This document shows positions 16,712 to 37,777 of a DNA stretch of 38,389 bases, piece after piece. Both the position numbers and the translations under genes were made by a program. The DNA lies in the IMG/VR virus record IMGVR_UViG_3300032236_000421, positions 1 through 38,389 of that record. One strand, 5' to 3'. The stretch is from a virus. Each line of letters starts with the position of its first letter. Within the stretch, counting starts at the first letter, position 1. Under the pieces are notes generated by a model that worked only from the letters and a program-made list of their open reading frames with translations, did no database searches and was not told where the DNA came from.

Positions 16712-16920
16712 GCGTAGCCGATCGAATTACCGTCATCTGTTGCGTGTCGCTATCCATTGTGCTGATGAGTACGGTAAGCGTTGTACTGGTTGGCTTGTTT
16801 GACGAACGCGTCGATAACGCTGAAGTTTTTAAACTAATCAACCCCGCTTTCAATATGATTGTCGGCGCGTTTGTTGGAACGATCGCTGGCATAAAAATAG
16901 GAAAAGACGATGCTAAGTAA
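16708..16920 (+). CDS. Two-segment membrane protein, alternative holin
   Basis: The start is ATG 16708, which overlaps the Rz TGA (ATGA). An in-frame ATG at 16690 is possible but lies inside Rz. The 70-aa product has hydrophobic segments at about residues 6-28 (TVICCVSLSIVLMSTVSVVL) and 44-63 (AFNMIVGAFVGTIAGIKIG), separated by an acidic loop (DERVDNAEVFK). The C-terminus is charged. Two membrane segments and position next to the endolysin make it a good class II holin candidate. It overlaps the endolysin start by 11 nt. Confidence 0.72.
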   Translation: MSVADRITVICCVSLSIVLMSTVSVVLVGLFDERVDNAEVFKLINPAFNMIVGAFVGTIAGIKIGKDDAK

Positions 16921-17527
16921 ACAAGCCCTAATTGATTCGCAAACTTGCACGGCTGACATGGCCGAGAAGTGGTTTATTCCGTTAGAGTTTACTTGCGACA
17001 AGTTTGAGATCAACACGCCCGAGCGCTTGGCAGGGTTCTTGAGTCAAATTTCGCATGAGTCAGGCGGGTTTCGTTTTACCTCTGAGAACCTAAACTACCG
17101 CGCTGAAGCCTTGACACGCAGTTGGCCCAGCCGCTTCCCACCAGGCATTGCCGAAAGCTACGCCATGCAACCTGAAAAGATCGCCAACCGCGCCTATTGC
17201 GACCGCATGGGAAACGGCGATGAAGCGTCGGGTGATGGATGGAAGTACCGTGGGCGAGGGCTTATTCAGTTGACAGGCAAAGACAATTACGCAGCGTTCT
17301 CGCTTGATGCGGATAACGAAGCGTTGGTCAACCCCGACTTGGTCGCCGAGCCCGAACTGGCGGCACTTTCTGCCGGTTGGTTTTGGAAGAAGAACGGCTT
17401 GAATGCGTTGGCTGATGCCAAAGATATTGTCGGCATGCGTAAACGAATTAACGGAGGGATTAACGGGCTTGACGACGTACAAATGAGGTATGCTAAATTG
17501 ATAGAATATTTTAAAGGCCATCAATGA
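16910..17527 (+). CDS. Endolysin, glycoside hydrolase family 19 (chitinase/lysozyme-like)
   Basis: 205 residues. The GH19 fold is clear from FLSQISHESGGFRFTSENLN (residues about 42-62, with the likely catalytic Glu in HESGGF), the block YRGRGLIQLTGKDNYAAFS (about 114-132), the PELAALSAGWFW motif and the closing KRINGGINGLDDVQMRYAKL. It hydrolyses peptidoglycan glycan strands. No signal peptide is evident, so it needs a holin. Its stop overlaps the next HNH gene start (ATGA). A second, diverged copy of its C-terminus lies after that gene at 18006-18074. Confidence 0.92.
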   Translation: MLSKQALIDSQTCTADMAEKWFIPLEFTCDKFEINTPERLAGFLSQISHESGGFRFTSENLNYRAEALTRSWPSRFPPGIAESYAMQPEKIANRAYCDRMGNGDEASGDGWKYRGRGLIQLTGKDNYAAFSLDADNEALVNPDLVAEPELAALSAGWFWKKNGLNALADAKDIVGMRKRINGGINGLDDVQMRYAKLIEYFKGHQ

Positions 17528-18006
17528 ACGCAACCCAGCTTAATGATTTGTTTATGTATGAAAACGGGAAATTATTGGTTAACAAACCAAATTTACGCAG
17601 CAAATTAAAACATGGGGATAGAGCGGGAAGTTTAAATAAACATGGTTATAGAACAATTAGAATACAAAACAAAGTTTATTTAGAGCATCGGTTAATTTAC
17701 ACAATGTTTCATAATGATTGCCCTAAATCACTAGATCATATTAACGGCAACAAGTTAGACAACCGTATTGAAAATTTACGCCCTTGTACAGCGACACAAA
17801 ACCAACAAAACAAAAAACTTAGCAAAGTTAATAAGTCAGGGTATAAAGGTGTCTGTTGGAGAAACGAAAAACAATCTTGGCGTGTAGCAATTCGTGCAAA
17901 CGGCAAAAGAATTGAACTTGGTTCGTTTCGTGATTTAGAACTGGCAGGTCTAGTTGCTGATATGGCTAGAGAAAAATACCACAAAAATTTTTGTAGACAT
18001 ATTTAA
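17524..18006 (+). CDS. HNH endonuclease with AP2-like DNA-binding domain (copy 1)
   Basis: 160 residues. The HNH core lies in the stretch with YLEHRLIYTMFHNDCPKS, then LDHINGNKLDNRIENLRP. The AP2-type domain follows (NKSGYKGVCWRNEKQSWRVA, then GKRIELGSFRDLELA). It is AT-rich compared with the endolysin beside it, which suggests recent entry. It sits between the intact endolysin and a repeat of the endolysin 3' end, the footprint of a homing-type insertion. Three related genes lie elsewhere in the genome. Confidence 0.9.
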   Translation: MNATQLNDLFMYENGKLLVNKPNLRSKLKHGDRAGSLNKHGYRTIRIQNKVYLEHRLIYTMFHNDCPKSLDHINGNKLDNRIENLRPCTATQNQQNKKLSKVNKSGYKGVCWRNEKQSWRVAIRANGKRIELGSFRDLELAGLVADMAREKYHKNFCRHI

Positions 18007-18074
18007 ATGGCGGCACCAATGGGCTTGATGACCGCCAAATGCGCTACTCACGCCTCATGTCAGTATTGTCATAA
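18006..18074 (+). pseudogene. Orphan duplicate of the endolysin C-terminus
   Basis: In the frame starting at 18006 the sequence reads NGGTNGLDDRQMRYSRLM and then SVLS and stop (TAA 18072-18074). It aligns without gaps to the endolysin end at 17450-17503 (NGGINGLDDVQMRYAKLI). It has no start codon of its own. Nucleotide identity is moderate, with several synonymous changes, so it is not a recent exact duplication. The best reading is that it is the original 3' end of the resident endolysin gene, displaced by insertion of the HNH gene plus a replacement 3' end. Confidence 0.85.
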
Positions 18075-18172
18075 GCACCCTACGCCATAGTGGGATGTAA
18101 GGACAGGAGTAGTAGCCACTAAAGAGCGTGCGGGCGGTACGCCCTGTCCAGTTCGAGCCACTACGGTCAACA
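18075..18172. other. Structured gap between convergent operons
   Basis: This 98-nt gap separates the late rightward and early leftward blocks. It contains GGACAGG (18101-18107) pairing with CCTGTCC (18143-18149), and inside this the hairpin GGGCG-GTA-CGCCC (18132-18144). GCCACTA occurs twice (about 18115-18121 and 18157-18163), and TAGTGG (18088-18093) could pair with either copy. No U tract is present. A processing or termination element, or a small structured RNA, is possible. Confidence 0.45.
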
Positions 18173-18367
18173 TTACTTGGCCAGTTTCTTGACGCAGTAT
18201 TCACAATACCCTCCTAAAAGATCACTACATACTTGACCGCACCCGTCGCAGATCAACTCGGGCGGGAATTGCGGGGGCTTTTCGCGTTTGTTGAATATCA
18301 ATATCAACGCGCCGATAAATAACCCCACCGAAACGTAGAACCACATAACGATCTCATACACTATCAT
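18173..18367 (-). CDS. Membrane protein with zinc-ribbon-like tail (64 aa)
   Basis: Last gene of the first leftward operon. It has one membrane segment at about residues 5-25 (EIVMWFYVSVGLFIGALILI), then a basic linker (NKREKPPQ) and a Cys-rich tail: CDGC, C six residues beyond its first Cys, and CEYC. The four-Cys spacing fits a small zinc ribbon facing the cytoplasm. Start overlaps the previous stop by one base (TAATG). Function is unknown. Confidence 0.68.
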   Translation of the reverse strand: MIVYEIVMWFYVSVGLFIGALILIFNKREKPPQFPPELICDGCGQVCSDLLGGYCEYCVKKLAK

Positions 18368-18627
18368 TAGCCACCTCCTATGGTGATGATTGTGGGTTGC
18401 TCTTTAGCAGCCCGTTTAGCGTTGATTTGAAGTGCCATAGGCATCTGATATGCGCCCTTGACTAGCCTAGGTGGTGCAGCCGCGATAAACGCCTCCAAGA
18501 GCCATCTAGGGTTCGTCGGCCCACCGCCTAACACGCGGGCGGCAGCCGCCAGTATCTCGCCTTCCGAATTGGTGCTATAGCCCATTGTTCTTAATTTGTG
18601 CGCCGCCACGGAGTACAGATTTTTCAT
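18367..18627 (-). CDS. Small early protein (86 aa), unknown function
   Basis: 86 residues, overlapping the end of the preceding 58-aa gene by 53 nt. The region GGGPTNPRWLLEAFIAAAPPR suggests a helix-turn-helix-sized helical bundle, and the C-terminus is basic, then Gly-rich (KRAAKEQPTIITIGGG). A later ATG at 18585 is a possible start that would remove most of the overlap. GGA lies upstream of 18627. No family is recognised. Confidence 0.6.
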   Translation of the reverse strand: MKNLYSVAAHKLRTMGYSTNSEGEILAAAARVLGGGPTNPRWLLEAFIAAAPPRLVKGAYQMPMALQINAKRAAKEQPTIITIGGG

Positions 18628-21558: not shown

Positions 21559-21811
21559 CTACTTGTTCCTTAGTCCATAGTGTTGTGTAATTTTGGTTTA
21601 ATCTCGCCATGTCGGCGGCAAAAATTTTTTGTAATTCTGACAATCGACCTCCTTTGGTTTTAAGTTCTACAAACCATGTCGCCCCATTGGGAAAACACGC
21701 TATACGATCGGCAACGCCACGGTGACTAGGCGACGTGAACTTGTACGTCTTGCCCCCTGCGCGTTCAACCGCCCACTTAAAATAATTTTCGATTTCTGAT
21801 TCGCGGGTCAC
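21530..21811 (-). CDS. VRR-NUC domain nuclease (93 aa)
   Basis: 93 residues, the usual size of phage stand-alone VRR-NUC proteins. Motifs: E near residue 7 (ESEIENYFKWAVE), GVADRIACFPNGATWFVELK with the catalytic D (about residue 33) and E-x-K (about 48-50), then GGRLSELQKIFAADM. This is the PD-(D/E)XK fold shared with FAN1 and Holliday-junction-type nucleases. It sits between an HNH gene (ATGA overlap) and the SNF2 helicase and probably processes branched DNA during replication. Confidence 0.9.
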   Translation of the reverse strand: MTRESEIENYFKWAVERAGGKTYKFTSPSHRGVADRIACFPNGATWFVELKTKGGRLSELQKIFAADMARLNQNYTTLWTKEQVDVYITTLSD

Positions 21812-22296
21812 ATTGCGCCTGCGTGGGTAAACATTAAACTTTGAGCATTTAATCTAGCTTGCCGCGCGGCGTCTAAAGTGTCATGCACCCCAAGATAAAC
21901 GCGTTTTTTATCCATTGTTATGTACGCTTCATATTTACCGTACAAATGTAAATACACTCCTTTACACCCTGATGTGTTGTTTTTGTATCTATTAGTGTTT
22001 TGCGTGTTTTGTTGCGGCGACGCTAAACGTAAATTAGATATAGCGTTATGACTGCGGTTACGATCTTTGTGGTCTAAAAAACTTGACGGCCATTCACCGT
22101 TAACATAAAGCCACACCAAACGATGCGCTAAATATTGTTTTCGATTTATACAAATACCTATGTAACCGTCTTTTCTTACTGTGCCCGCAATTTTACCTGC
22201 GCGATCGTTTCTAGCAATGCCATGTCTAGCTTTCCAAATAAATTTACCTGTAGCAGAATTAAGTACCAACAATGATTTTAAAGTGGTTGCATTCAT
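21808..22296 (-). CDS. HNH endonuclease with AP2-like domain (copy 2)
   Basis: 162 residues. N-terminal domain with KARHGIARNDRAGKIAGTVR, HNH core with LAHRLVWLYVNGEWPSSFLD, then HKDRNRSHNAISNLR, and AP2-like NTSGCKGVYLHLYGKYEAYI with YLGVHDTLDAARQA. It is the first gene of the leftward operon, with AAAGGA before the ATG and the promoter 25-30 nt upstream. It is AT-rich and joined to VRR-NUC by ATGA. It is the only one of the four HNH-AP2 genes on the minus strand. Confidence 0.9.
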   Translation of the reverse strand: MNATTLKSLLVLNSATGKFIWKARHGIARNDRAGKIAGTVRKDGYIGICINRKQYLAHRLVWLYVNGEWPSSFLDHKDRNRSHNAISNLRLASPQQNTQNTNRYKNNTSGCKGVYLHLYGKYEAYITMDKKRVYLGVHDTLDAARQARLNAQSLMFTHAGAM

Positions 22297-32205: not shown

Positions 32206-32723
32206 CCTACAATCGCAAAATGCTATCTCTACACTTCACACCCCGCGAAGTCCGCGCCACCGAGTCGCGATTGCAGCGCGTCTACGACGCGGCGAAGTTA
32301 GGCTTGTCCAACGATGCGCTTGCGCTCAAAGCTGGCATGATGCCCGAGGAGTTTCGTAAACTCTGCCAACTAGACCCAGTTGTCGAGTTGGCGGTTATGC
32401 AGGGCCGAGCCGAAGCGGAAGCCACCATGTCGCAAGTCGTGTACGACGCGGCGGTCGGCGGCGACGCCAAGATGGCGTTGGAGTTTCTGAAACATAAGCA
32501 CGCTTGGACTGCGGCTCAAGCCATCACGGTAGATGTAACTCAAACCATATCTATTATTACGGCGCTTGAGCAAGCCAACCAAAGAGTAGCAAATGGGCTT
32601 ACAATTGACGAAGCCGATTATCGCGTCAACGATAACCGGCTTCTTATCAACAACCGTGAAAAGGACGGCGATGACTACCAAGATATTAACTCAAGACCGG
32701 CTCAAAGAGCTACTTCAGTATGA
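32202..32723 (+). CDS. terS: Terminase small subunit
   Basis: 173 residues placed before the large subunit. The N-terminal part has a helix-turn-helix-like stretch (YDAAKLGLSNDALALKAGMM, then PEEFRKLCQLDP) as in DNA-recognising small terminases. A helical region typical of the oligomerisation domain follows (AEAEATMSQVVYDAAVGGDA, KMALEFLKHKHAW). The last 17 codons overlap the HNH gene, so the C-terminus may have been altered by that insertion. It should recognise the packaging site and recruit the motor. Confidence 0.82.
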   Translation: MTYNRKMLSLHFTPREVRATESRLQRVYDAAKLGLSNDALALKAGMMPEEFRKLCQLDPVVELAVMQGRAEAEATMSQVVYDAAVGGDAKMALEFLKHKHAWTAAQAITVDVTQTISIITALEQANQRVANGLTIDEADYRVNDNRLLINNREKDGDDYQDINSRPAQRATSV

Positions 32724-33153
32724 CGCCGACACAGGCGTCTTTACCTGGCGGGCTACCCGCAGAGCGGCTAAGGCAAACGCAATAGCCGGTACGCGCAGCG
32801 TCAAAAATTACATTATGGTAAGCGTAGATGCAAAAGTGTATTGCGCGCATCGGCTTGCTTGGCTGTATACCCACGGCGTTTGGCCTACTTCCGAACTAGA
32901 CCACATAAACAGAATCCGCAATGACAACCGCATAGAAAACTTGCGGTTAGCCGATCGATACATCAACACCCGTAACACCGAAACGCGCAAAGATAATTTG
33001 TCCGGCGCCAAAGGTGTGCGTTGGCATAAAACGCAAGCTAGGTGGGAATCCCGTATACAGCACAACCATAAACCGATTACGATAGGCTATTACGGCAATT
33101 TGCAAGATGCTGTACAAGCCCGCAAGATTGCTGAAATTTTATTAGGTTGGTAA
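32671..33153 (+). CDS. HNH endonuclease with AP2-like domain (copy 3)
   Basis: 160 residues from ATG 32671, supported by AAGGA 5 nt upstream; an upstream in-frame ATG at 32593 would lie deep in the terminase gene. HNH core: YCAHRLAWLYTHGVWPTSEL, then DHINRIRNDNRIENLR. AP2-like part: NLSGAKGVRWHKTQARWESR, then ITIGYYGNLQDAVQARK. It lies between the two terminase genes and ends 3 nt before the large-subunit ATG. Its GC content is closer to the genome average than copies 1, 2 and 4, so it may be an older resident. Confidence 0.9.
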   Translation: MTTKILTQDRLKELLQYDADTGVFTWRATRRAAKANAIAGTRSVKNYIMVSVDAKVYCAHRLAWLYTHGVWPTSELDHINRIRNDNRIENLRLADRYINTRNTETRKDNLSGAKGVRWHKTQARWESRIQHNHKPITIGYYGNLQDAVQARKIAEILLGW

Positions 33154-35158: not shown

Positions 35159-37317
35159 ACGATAAAGACATCATAGACACCGCGCTGCATCGCATGACAA
35201 TGGCGATAGCCGCCTATTCTGATAGCCGTGAGGATGAACTAGATGACTTACGATTCTACGCAGCAAGCCCCGACAACCAATATCAATGGCCAGCCGACGT
35301 ACTCGCTACTAGAGGCGCAGTTCAGGGCCAAACAATTAACGCTCGACCTTGCCTTACCATTAACAAACTGCCTCAGCACGTCCGACAAGTCACCAACGAC
35401 CAACGCCAAAATCGACCAAGTGGGAAAGTAATCCCTGCTGACGACAAAGCTGACGTGGAAGTTGCCGAGATTTTCAACGGCATGGTGCGTCATATTGAGT
35501 ATATGTCGGACGCGGACGTTGCATACGACACCGCTTGCGAAAACCAAGTGGCGTACGGTGAAGGCTACATTCGACTGCTTACCGAGTACGAAAGCCCTAA
35601 TTCGTTTGATCAAACCATCAAAATTGGGCGTATTCGCAATAGTTTTAGCGTCTACATGGATCCGACCATCCAAGACCCTTGCGGCTCAGACGCACAATGG
35701 TGTTTTGTGACCGAAGACGTGCTGCTTGAAGACTTTGAGCGTATGTTTCCTGACGCGCAACCCGTGTCCTCTCTCCAAGCGCAAAGCGTGGGCAACGAAT
35801 CCTACGCCCCGTGGTTAAGCGTAGACACCATTCGGATTGCCGATTATTACTACGTCGAACACGAAAAAGCTACGCTAAATCTGTATTACGGCAACGTAAG
35901 TGCTTTGAAAGGCTCACCTGAAGACCAACAAATGGTTCAGTTAGGCATGAAACCGATCAAAAGCCGCTTGGTTGACATTAAAAAAGTCAGACATTGCAAA
36001 ATCAATGGCTTTGAAGTGTTGGAGTCAAACGATTGGGCGGGCGAGTGGATTCCAGTTGTGCGGGTGGTCGGCAACGAATTTGAGATCGACGGGCGCATTC
36101 ATGTGTCGGGCATTGTTCGCAACGCCAAGGATGCACAGCGGATGTACAACTATTGGGTAAGCCAAGAAGCAGAAATGCTTGCCTTGGCACCCAAAGCACC
36201 GTTTATTGGCTACGGCGGTCAGTTTGAAGGCTACGAACAGCAATGGAAAACAGCCAACACGACCAACTGGCCGTACCTTGAGGTTAACCCTGATGTAAGC
36301 GACGGTGCGGGCACTCCGCTGCCTTTGCCGCAACGCTCACAACCGCCTATGGCGCAGACCGGCTTAATTCAAGCCAAAATGGGCGCCAGCGACGATATTA
36401 AAGGCACGACAGGGCAATATGACTCTAGCCTCGGCGCGACCTCTAACGAGCGTTCAGGCAAGGCTATCATGGCGCGTGAGCGTCAGACCGACACCGGCAC
36501 TTATCATTACGTTGACAACCTCGCCCGTGCGATACGCCACATTACGCGCCAAATCGTGGGCCTAGTGCCTAAACTGTACGACACCCAACGCATTGCGCGC
36601 ATCATGGGTGAAGACGGGCAACCTGATTCAGCCAAGATCGACCCTAATCAAGCCGAGCCGGTCAAGAAAATTGTTGACCAAAACGGCATTGAAATTGACC
36701 GGATTTACAACCCTGGTGTCGGAACGTACGACGTCATGGTCACGACCGGCCCAAGCTACATGACCAAACGCCAAGAGGCGTTGGAATCTATGGGTCAATT
36801 GCTGCAAGGCAACCCACAACTGTGGGCGGTTGCCGGTGATTTGTTTATCAAAAACATGGATTGGCCTGGTGCGCAAGAAATGGCTAAACGCTTTGCCAAG
36901 ACGATTGATCCTAAGTTGATGGACGACGGCAATAAAGACCCAGCCTTGCAAGCCGCCGAGCAGCAGATGCAAGCGATGGCGCAAGAAATGGAAAATATGC
37001 ACAAGATGCTGCAAAACGTGTCCAAGTCAATCGAAATGAAAGACATTGAGATCAAAGAAAACGCCAACTTGATCAAAGCATTCGATGCTGAAACCAAGCG
37101 TATTGCGGCTGTACAAGCCTCTATGTCGCCCGAGCAGATTCAAGACGTAGTAATGGGTACTGTTCATTCTATGATTACGTCAGGTGATTTAGTAGGCGCA
37201 ATGGAAAATCGTGGCGGCAATCAAGTAAATGATGATATCATACCTGAGAACGTACCTCAAGGAATGATAAATGAACAGCCAGCACTTAACACAAACCCAA
37301 ATGCACCACCTGTTTGA
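35155..37317 (+). CDS. Portal protein, P22 gp1-like
   Basis: 720 residues, the size of the P22 portal (725). Family features: an N-terminal region with DLRFYAASPDNQYQWP and RPCLTINKLPQHVRQVTNDQ, then YDTACENQVAYGEGYIRLLT. The middle holds WAGEWIPVVRVVGNEFEIDG and SGKAIMARERQTDTGTYHYV. The C-terminus has long helices rich in Gln/Met (EQQMQAMAQEMENMHKMLQN), as in the P22 barrel region. It forms the dodecameric DNA gate. The last 47 nt overlap an HNH gene in another frame. Confidence 0.93.
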   Translation: MNDKDIIDTALHRMTMAIAAYSDSREDELDDLRFYAASPDNQYQWPADVLATRGAVQGQTINARPCLTINKLPQHVRQVTNDQRQNRPSGKVIPADDKADVEVAEIFNGMVRHIEYMSDADVAYDTACENQVAYGEGYIRLLTEYESPNSFDQTIKIGRIRNSFSVYMDPTIQDPCGSDAQWCFVTEDVLLEDFERMFPDAQPVSSLQAQSVGNESYAPWLSVDTIRIADYYYVEHEKATLNLYYGNVSALKGSPEDQQMVQLGMKPIKSRLVDIKKVRHCKINGFEVLESNDWAGEWIPVVRVVGNEFEIDGRIHVSGIVRNAKDAQRMYNYWVSQEAEMLALAPKAPFIGYGGQFEGYEQQWKTANTTNWPYLEVNPDVSDGAGTPLPLPQRSQPPMAQTGLIQAKMGASDDIKGTTGQYDSSLGATSNERSGKAIMARERQTDTGTYHYVDNLARAIRHITRQIVGLVPKLYDTQRIARIMGEDGQPDSAKIDPNQAEPVKKIVDQNGIEIDRIYNPGVGTYDVMVTTGPSYMTKRQEALESMGQLLQGNPQLWAVAGDLFIKNMDWPGAQEMAKRFAKTIDPKLMDDGNKDPALQAAEQQMQAMAQEMENMHKMLQNVSKSIEMKDIEIKENANLIKAFDAETKRIAAVQASMSPEQIQDVVMGTVHSMITSGDLVGAMENRGGNQVNDDIIPENVPQGMINEQPALNTNPNAPPV

Positions 37318-37777
37318 GTACAAAGACGGAAAGCTATTGTGGCGTGTAAAAACGTCGCGCAAAACAGTAATAGGAAATGAAGCAGGTACCCTTAGAAAAA
37401 CTGATGGATACAGGCAAATAATGATCAATCGAAAGCCGTATAGAACGCATAGATTGGTTTATTTATATCATCATGGTTATATTCCTGAGATAATTGATCA
37501 TATAAATCAAGATGCTTCGGATAACAGAGTAGAAAATTTACGTCCAGCTACACGCGCAGAAAACGCATATAACTGTTCTTTTAGACCTGACAATACTTCC
37601 GGCGTAAAGGGAGTTACTTGGGATAAAGCAAAAAACAAATGGTCTGCTAGGCTTTACGCAGACAGAATGTGTATAAATTTAGGCCGATTTATGAATTTTG
37701 ATGACGCAGCAAAAGCCATTAAAGTAGCAAGAGCCGTGTATCACGGAGAATTTGCTTGCACCGGAGAGATAACATGA
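37271..37777 (+). CDS. HNH endonuclease with AP2-like domain (copy 4)
   Basis: 168 residues; ATG 37271 lies inside the portal 3' end with AAGGA 7 nt upstream. HNH core: YRTHRLVYLYHHGYIPEIID, then HINQDASDNRVENLRP. AP2-like part: NTSGVKGVTWDKAKNKWSAR, then INLGRFMNFDDAAKA. It is more AT-rich than the portal. Its stop overlaps the start of the DUF5856-like gene as ATGA, so it is wedged tightly in the head operon. Confidence 0.9.
   Translation: MNSQHLTQTQMHHLFEYKDGKLLWRVKTSRKTVIGNEAGTLRKTDGYRQIMINRKPYRTHRLVYLYHHGYIPEIIDHINQDASDNRVENLRPATRAENAYNCSFRPDNTSGVKGVTWDKAKNKWSARLYADRMCINLGRFMNFDDAAKAIKVARAVYHGEFACTGEIT

Follow-up and report, generated by a model that had tools for sequence, protein, structure and literature searches.

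A putative HNH-AP2 homing endonuclease cassette that supplies a new 3' end to the phage endolysin gene it enters

The sequence analyzed here is a 38,389-nucleotide stretch of viral DNA (IMG/VR record IMGVR_UViG_3300032236_000421), referred to below as the window. It contains an endolysin gene, an HNH gene whose start sits in the endolysin stop codon (ATGA), and, directly behind the HNH gene, a second endolysin 3' end. The expressed endolysin ends in RKRINGGINGLDDVQMRYAKLIEYFKGHQ and a stop codon. The second end, NGGTNGLDDRQMRYSRLMSVLS and a stop, forms an orphan frame without a start codon, and its first base is the last A of the HNH stop codon TAA. The two ends form a 41-nt direct repeat with 71% identity. 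When the C terminus of the upstream gene was scored against the sequence following the HNH gene in a stop-anchored test, the endolysin cassette reached 72 to 80, while the best of 1932 random pairings drawn from other HNH loci was 46. The cassette was AT rich (GC content of 0.34 to 0.38) compared with the endolysin core and the orphan (0.53). The new tail retains the invariant residues N181, G182, G183, and G186. In an AlphaFold model of the hybrid endolysin, the mean pLDDT was 94.5, with values above 90 in the new tail except for the last few residues; a well-folded hybrid protein, replaced end included, is thus predicted. The orphan tail is inferred to be untranslated, and we propose that it serves as a right homology arm. 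The features of the locus are listed in Table 1.

The HNH protein matched Pfam HNH_3 (7.4e-13) and phrog_99 (7.8e-56). An AP2 match was also found (1.4e-6), with a bit score of 29, under the Pfam cut-off of 33.3. The domain order is that expected of I-HmuI-like HNH (HNN)-AP2 enzymes, with the HNH_3 nuclease domain followed by an AP2-type DNA-binding domain, and the profile of the HNH family matched the homing endonuclease I-HmuI (1U3E) at 1.5e-5. We regard the HNH product as a homing endonuclease; its endonuclease activity, sequence-specific cutting, and homing are inferred, and there are no biochemical or homing data.

To compare alleles of this site, endolysin relatives were drawn from viral contigs. 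One of them, L001, lacks the HNH gene and has a single uninterrupted endolysin (90% amino acid identity to that of the window) ending in RRINGGTNGLDDRQMRYSRLMSVLS and a stop. The flanks of the insert were homologous between L001 and the window, with 81.7% identity over 875 nt and 83.3% over 696 nt. The endolysin core of the window was 87.3% identical to that of L001 at the nucleotide level. The orphan matched the L001 end at 95.5% (100% at the amino acid level), and the expressed end of the window matched it at only 50%. Identity and GC content both indicate that the native core continues in frame into a foreign 3' end and that the native 3' end was displaced past the HNH gene. A second occupied site, L004/L081, carries the same cassette in a different endolysin allele. 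Between the window and L004, nucleotide identity was 70.8% in the core, 88.9% in the new tail (96% for amino acids), 92.7% in the HNH gene (95.6% for amino acids), and 73% in the orphan. Along a sliding window, identity to L004 was about 0.75 in the core, rose at about position 17432 to about 0.93, and fell again in the orphan after position 18006. The orphan of L004, NGGTNGLDDRQMRYSRLISCL and a stop, is of the type found at the end of L005 and L007, unlike that of the window, and both inserts end in TTTAAATGGCGG at an identical position. Thus, alleles were found at one precise site, empty in L001 and L005 and occupied, with a common junction, in the window and L004. Because one new tail and HNH gene occur in two alleles, each with its own end behind, one cassette entered both at one site. 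The comparison of these sequences therefore shows that the new 3' end and the HNH gene travel as a single unit between alleles. It also shows purifying selection on both the HNH gene (dN/dS of 0.07) and the new tail (0.05). The left cassette junction could not be placed to the base and could be as much as about 15 nt upstream of position 17438.

An earlier note, made before any relatives were compared, had described an endolysin gene, an ATGA-coupled HNH gene, and a start-less second endolysin end, and this layout held exactly. Its assignment of the two tails had to be corrected, the expressed tail being foreign and the tail inferred to be untranslated being native, and the replaced stretch begins slightly upstream of the motif that it quoted, at about position 17438. 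The empty site that it predicted, an endolysin core followed by a single ending, was found in L001, where both flanks are homologous to the window. It had named two observations that would refute its reading. HNH-less relatives carrying both tails were not seen (0 of 78 HNH-less endolysin relatives; among the 79 testable relatives, the only one with a second tail was L004, which has the HNH gene). An orphan from a different ancestral gene failed to appear as well, since it is the endolysin's own native end that forms the orphan. Its reading of an invasion that brought a replacement 3' end is supported, with cleavage and homing remaining inferred, and the search for orphan tails elsewhere that it suggested succeeded in terminase, portal, and spanin genes, as described below.

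Table 1. Features of the endolysin locus and further HNH genes in the window
Feature	Position	Strand	Remarks
Endolysin ORF	16910-17527	+	GH19 / phrog_181
Endolysin core	16910-17437	+	Native to the phage lineage; phrog_181 1.5e-78, Glyco_hydro_19 2.5e-9; GC 0.53
Replacement endolysin 3' end, 29 codons plus stop	17438-17527	+	Cassette borne, recoded relative to the native end; GC 0.38
HNH (HNN-type) plus AP2 putative endonuclease gene	17524-18006	+	Start overlaps the endolysin stop (ATGA)
Complete mobile cassette (new tail plus HNH), about 568 bp	17438-18005	+	Identity profile against L004; junctions against empty sites L001 and L005
Orphan native endolysin 3' end, start-less	18006-18074	+	NGGTNGLDDRQMRYSRLMSVLS and stop; matches the end of uninterrupted L001; GC 0.53
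Further HNH gene	21808-22296	-	Amino acid identity of the three further genes to the endolysin-linked HNH, 32-40%
Further HNH gene	32671-33153	+	Between terS and terL; overlaps the terS 3' end by 53 nt
Further HNH gene	37271-37777	+	Overlaps the portal 3' end by 47 nt

In HNH_3/AP2 loci gathered from bacterial genomes as well as viral contigs, the sequence after the HNH gene was then tested for another C terminus of the upstream gene. A stop-anchored test was adopted, since GC-rich, out-of-frame sequence had produced false positives under free local alignment. Clear orphan tails were present at 5 of the 242 non-redundant HNH places with an upstream gene (about 2%), namely, the window, L004, L119, L342, and L469. 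The arrangement is thus shown to recur in other genes. In L119, the upstream gene encodes the terminase large subunit; its expressed end is EYVATAPKRGYTAGGIATSWMGA and the orphan is DIVDRAPRRAYAPGGISNSWMGA, each followed by a stop. Three empty TerL sites (L171, L173, and L187) end in the type of the L119 orphan, with 91 to 98% nucleotide identity on both flanks. Apart from L170, which is the contig of L119, none of the remaining 79 TerL loci had a second tail. In L342, a prophage in a Rhodospirillales genome, the upstream gene encodes the portal protein, and the orphan scored 97 against a null maximum of 58. Its tail is longer, and this locus was counted on the basis of an earlier test and of portal relatives, not by the stop-anchored test. 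L558 carries the beginning of the L342 insert, and the other portal relatives that were readable to the stop had one end each. The portal relatives are too alike for the L342 orphan to be tied to a lineage.

The remaining case, L469, lies in a gene for the Rz spanin, where a new tail and the HNH gene are followed by the usual Rz end. A cassette of the L469 type was also found in L480, with its own decayed orphan (internal stop), and in L484, from which the orphan is gone. A shared HNH cassette differing from that of L469 was found in the Rz genes of L527 and of the cultured Cronobacter phage ES2 (GenBank JF314845, L638), followed in each by a different native-type Rz end. In L469, L480, L527, and ES2, the embedded +1 frame (Rz1-like) also had a new C terminus; the Rz cassette therefore re-ends two overlapping frames. 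HNH identity among the Rz cassettes was 82 to 83% at the nucleotide level versus 76 to 78% in the core. Because this is only slightly above the core, transfer is less clear for Rz than for the endolysin.

Several other observations were made during the survey. L479 (about 1810-1893) and L481 (about 938-1021) have an Rz gene with a cassette-type 3' end and no HNH gene; they probably represent an end stage in which the replaced gene end has outlasted the homing gene. The ES2 record lists the HNH gene (1432-1929) merely as encoding a hypothetical protein and has no annotation for the Rz tail behind it. In Escherichia coli phage vB_EcoP-683R2 (ON470594, L639), an HNH/AP2 gene (1501-1995) is annotated as an endolysin, apparently a naming error. 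The C termini of the HNH genes of L354 (1854-2369) and L166 (1202-1696) resemble that of the upstream gene (KEWRHRIVDVS / KQWLHKIVDVS; AVMVSSGE). A displaced tail might have been fused in frame to the HNH gene in these two loci, although they are weak and unproven candidates. For the mirror case, an orphan 5' end before the HNH gene, every alignment obtained was chance-like, low in complexity, or out of frame. The cultured-phage HNH loci H1, H14, H48, H126, H137, and H152 yielded no established case of an orphan tail, and no tail duplication was seen at the three other HNH genes of the window.

We consider it very likely (probability of about 0.85) that the window holds a free-standing homing endonuclease cassette that replaces the 3' end of the gene it targets, carries a recoded version of its own target region, and keeps the displaced end in place as a homology arm. 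The cassette boundaries, the empty site, and the transfer from allele to allele rest directly on the alignments; endonuclease activity and homing are inferred. Clear cases being a minority of HNH places, about 2%, counts against this reading. In the proposed mechanism, the HNH enzyme would most likely nick or cut the uninvaded allele at the GMTRRINGG codons, in a conserved GH19 segment. The break would be repaired from a cassette-bearing genome during a mixed infection, with the endolysin core as the left arm and the displaced native tail as the right arm. The recipient would then produce a full-length hybrid endolysin made of its native core and the cassette tail. The HNH gene would be translated through ATGA coupling, and the old tail would stay untranslated behind it. 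The occupied allele should be resistant to further cutting, since the cassette holds a recoded target region and keeps the native half-sites apart. The cleavage site, the repair route, and this immunity are all inferred. The cassette could plausibly have originated from a free-standing HNH gene located immediately behind a homologous endolysin. In the first capture, repair with homology on the upstream side only may have copied the donor 3' end and the HNH gene, which were joined to the cut end of the recipient.

Other explanations for the locus were considered. Phages are mosaic, and illegitimate recombination could have brought a gene end and an HNH block from another phage, with the endonuclease uninvolved and the orphan a mere recombination scar. 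The fact that most of the surveyed HNH genes have no orphan tails speaks for such passive mosaicism. However, one block with one junction base is found in two endolysin alleles that are about 29% different, different HNH genes occur in a like layout at other conserved gene ends, and the HNH gene is under purifying selection; we therefore find this explanation unlikely. The homologous ends on both sides of the HNH gene could also result from an in-place tandem duplication of the endolysin 3' end, with the HNH gene landing between the copies and divergence following later. This is very unlikely, because the orphan shares 95.5% identity with the end of L001, whereas the expressed end is 50% identical to that of L001 and 89% to that of L004, and no HNH-less relative has two ends. 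As the window is a metagenomic virus record, an assembly chimera of two co-occurring phage strains could be suspected, but this is all but excluded by the identical junction in the independent contig L004 and by the recurrence of the layout, which is seen in many contigs as well as in the GenBank entry for the cultured phage ES2.

Three known types of element were rejected as well. A search of Rfam over positions 16800 to 18400 gave zero matches at an E value of ≤1, and hence no known intron family is present; on this result and on the closing of the endolysin frame before the HNH gene, a group I intron was rejected. An intein is ruled out since the HNH gene comes after the endolysin stop and only HNH_3 and AP2 were detected. 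The locus is not a gene in pieces either, because the first piece ends as a complete endolysin and the second is start-less. The Rz equivalent of the orphan also counts against genes in pieces, as it has a stop in L480 and is absent in L484.

The homing strategy that the earlier note had put forward is not new in principle, as it has a precedent in fungal mitochondrial DNA (PMC3630166). Mobile ORFs carrying a C terminus have been described in atp6, atp9, cox2, and nad3 of Glomus and in atp6 of Allomyces macrogynus (PMC3630166). As in the phage cassette, an endonuclease gene lies in a host gene, a foreign C terminus supplants the native one, and the displaced native C terminus, found downstream, is most similar to those of close relatives (PMC3630166). 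The criteria for a displaced C terminus were met here, the native tail being nearest to close relatives and the inserted tail nearest to the other copy of the element. The mitochondrial location and the LAGLIDADG or GIY-YIG endonuclease of the fungal class were not met by this phage genome and its HNH/AP2 gene. In the fungal elements, host gene and endonuclease ORF are often in phase (PMC3630166), whereas the phage HNH gene is separate and ATGA coupled, and the re-ending of two overlapping frames by the Rz cassette is a further difference. Because the fungal ORFs are of the LAGLIDADG or GIY-YIG type and mitochondrial (PMC3630166), while the phage cassette is HNH-AP2, the two share a way of working but not a family.

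Phage papers describe free-standing intergenic genes, genes in pieces, random HNN-AP2 spread, and read-through insertions (PMC2988022, PMC2248197, PMC11855218, PMC10448857, PMC12724721). The seg and mob genes of T4 are alike in being free-standing endonuclease genes adjoining a conserved gene, and mobE has a stop/start overlap (UAAUGA), through which translational coupling has been proposed; unlike the cassette, these elements are described as intergenic, and the description includes neither a replacement gene end nor an orphan tail (PMC2988022). With mobE in nrdA of Aeh1 and mobA in gene 60 of T4, an HNH homing endonuclease lies within a coding sequence whose function is kept, as here. However, those genes in pieces give two translated polypeptides (PMC2988022), whereas in the endolysin the first piece is completed by the cassette and the second is start-less. 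The HNN-AP2 endonucleases of the Xanthomonas phages Xp10, OP1, and Xop411 have the same domain pair and a free-standing layout; no conserved flanks were found for them and sequence-independent spread was proposed, in contrast to the precise sites in homologous genes of the re-ending cassettes (PMC2248197). The out-of-frame HNH insertion in the ShiLan phage methylase is likewise neither an intron nor an intein and lies inside a phage gene, but it is read through in the host frame, while the endolysin frame ends before the HNH gene on the replacement 3' end (PMC11855218). No phage precedent for re-ending cassettes was found in the open PMC literature searched, and a report elsewhere is possible. 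The layout is thus known from fungal mitochondria, and its phage HNH-AP2 version is new as far as the open PMC literature shows.

A bolder reading, which we favor, is that homing cassettes that re-end genes form a class that recurs among phages. Several lineages of HNH-AP2 genes would each have acquired a 3' end from a conserved phage gene (endolysin, large terminase, portal, and Rz with its embedded Rz1), and invasion would swap the end of an essential gene instead of breaking the gene, with two overlapping frames re-ended in the case of Rz. Homing genes undergo a cycle of gain and loss. The Rz decay series fits such a cycle, with the replaced end as its lasting trace. If the replaced end can persist after loss of the HNH gene, homing would reshape the ends of phage genes.

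A simple search rule follows from the layout, namely, to look for HNH genes behind which the end of the upstream gene occurs a second time, and the cultured phage ES2 offers a system for testing homing. Homing endonucleases are thought to persist within introns or inteins, or between genes. The cassettes would represent a further route in phages, that of entering an essential gene and bringing a working substitute for the part displaced. They would explain the abrupt changes at phage gene ends, as well as the start-less tail fragments behind HNH genes that are skipped by gene callers.
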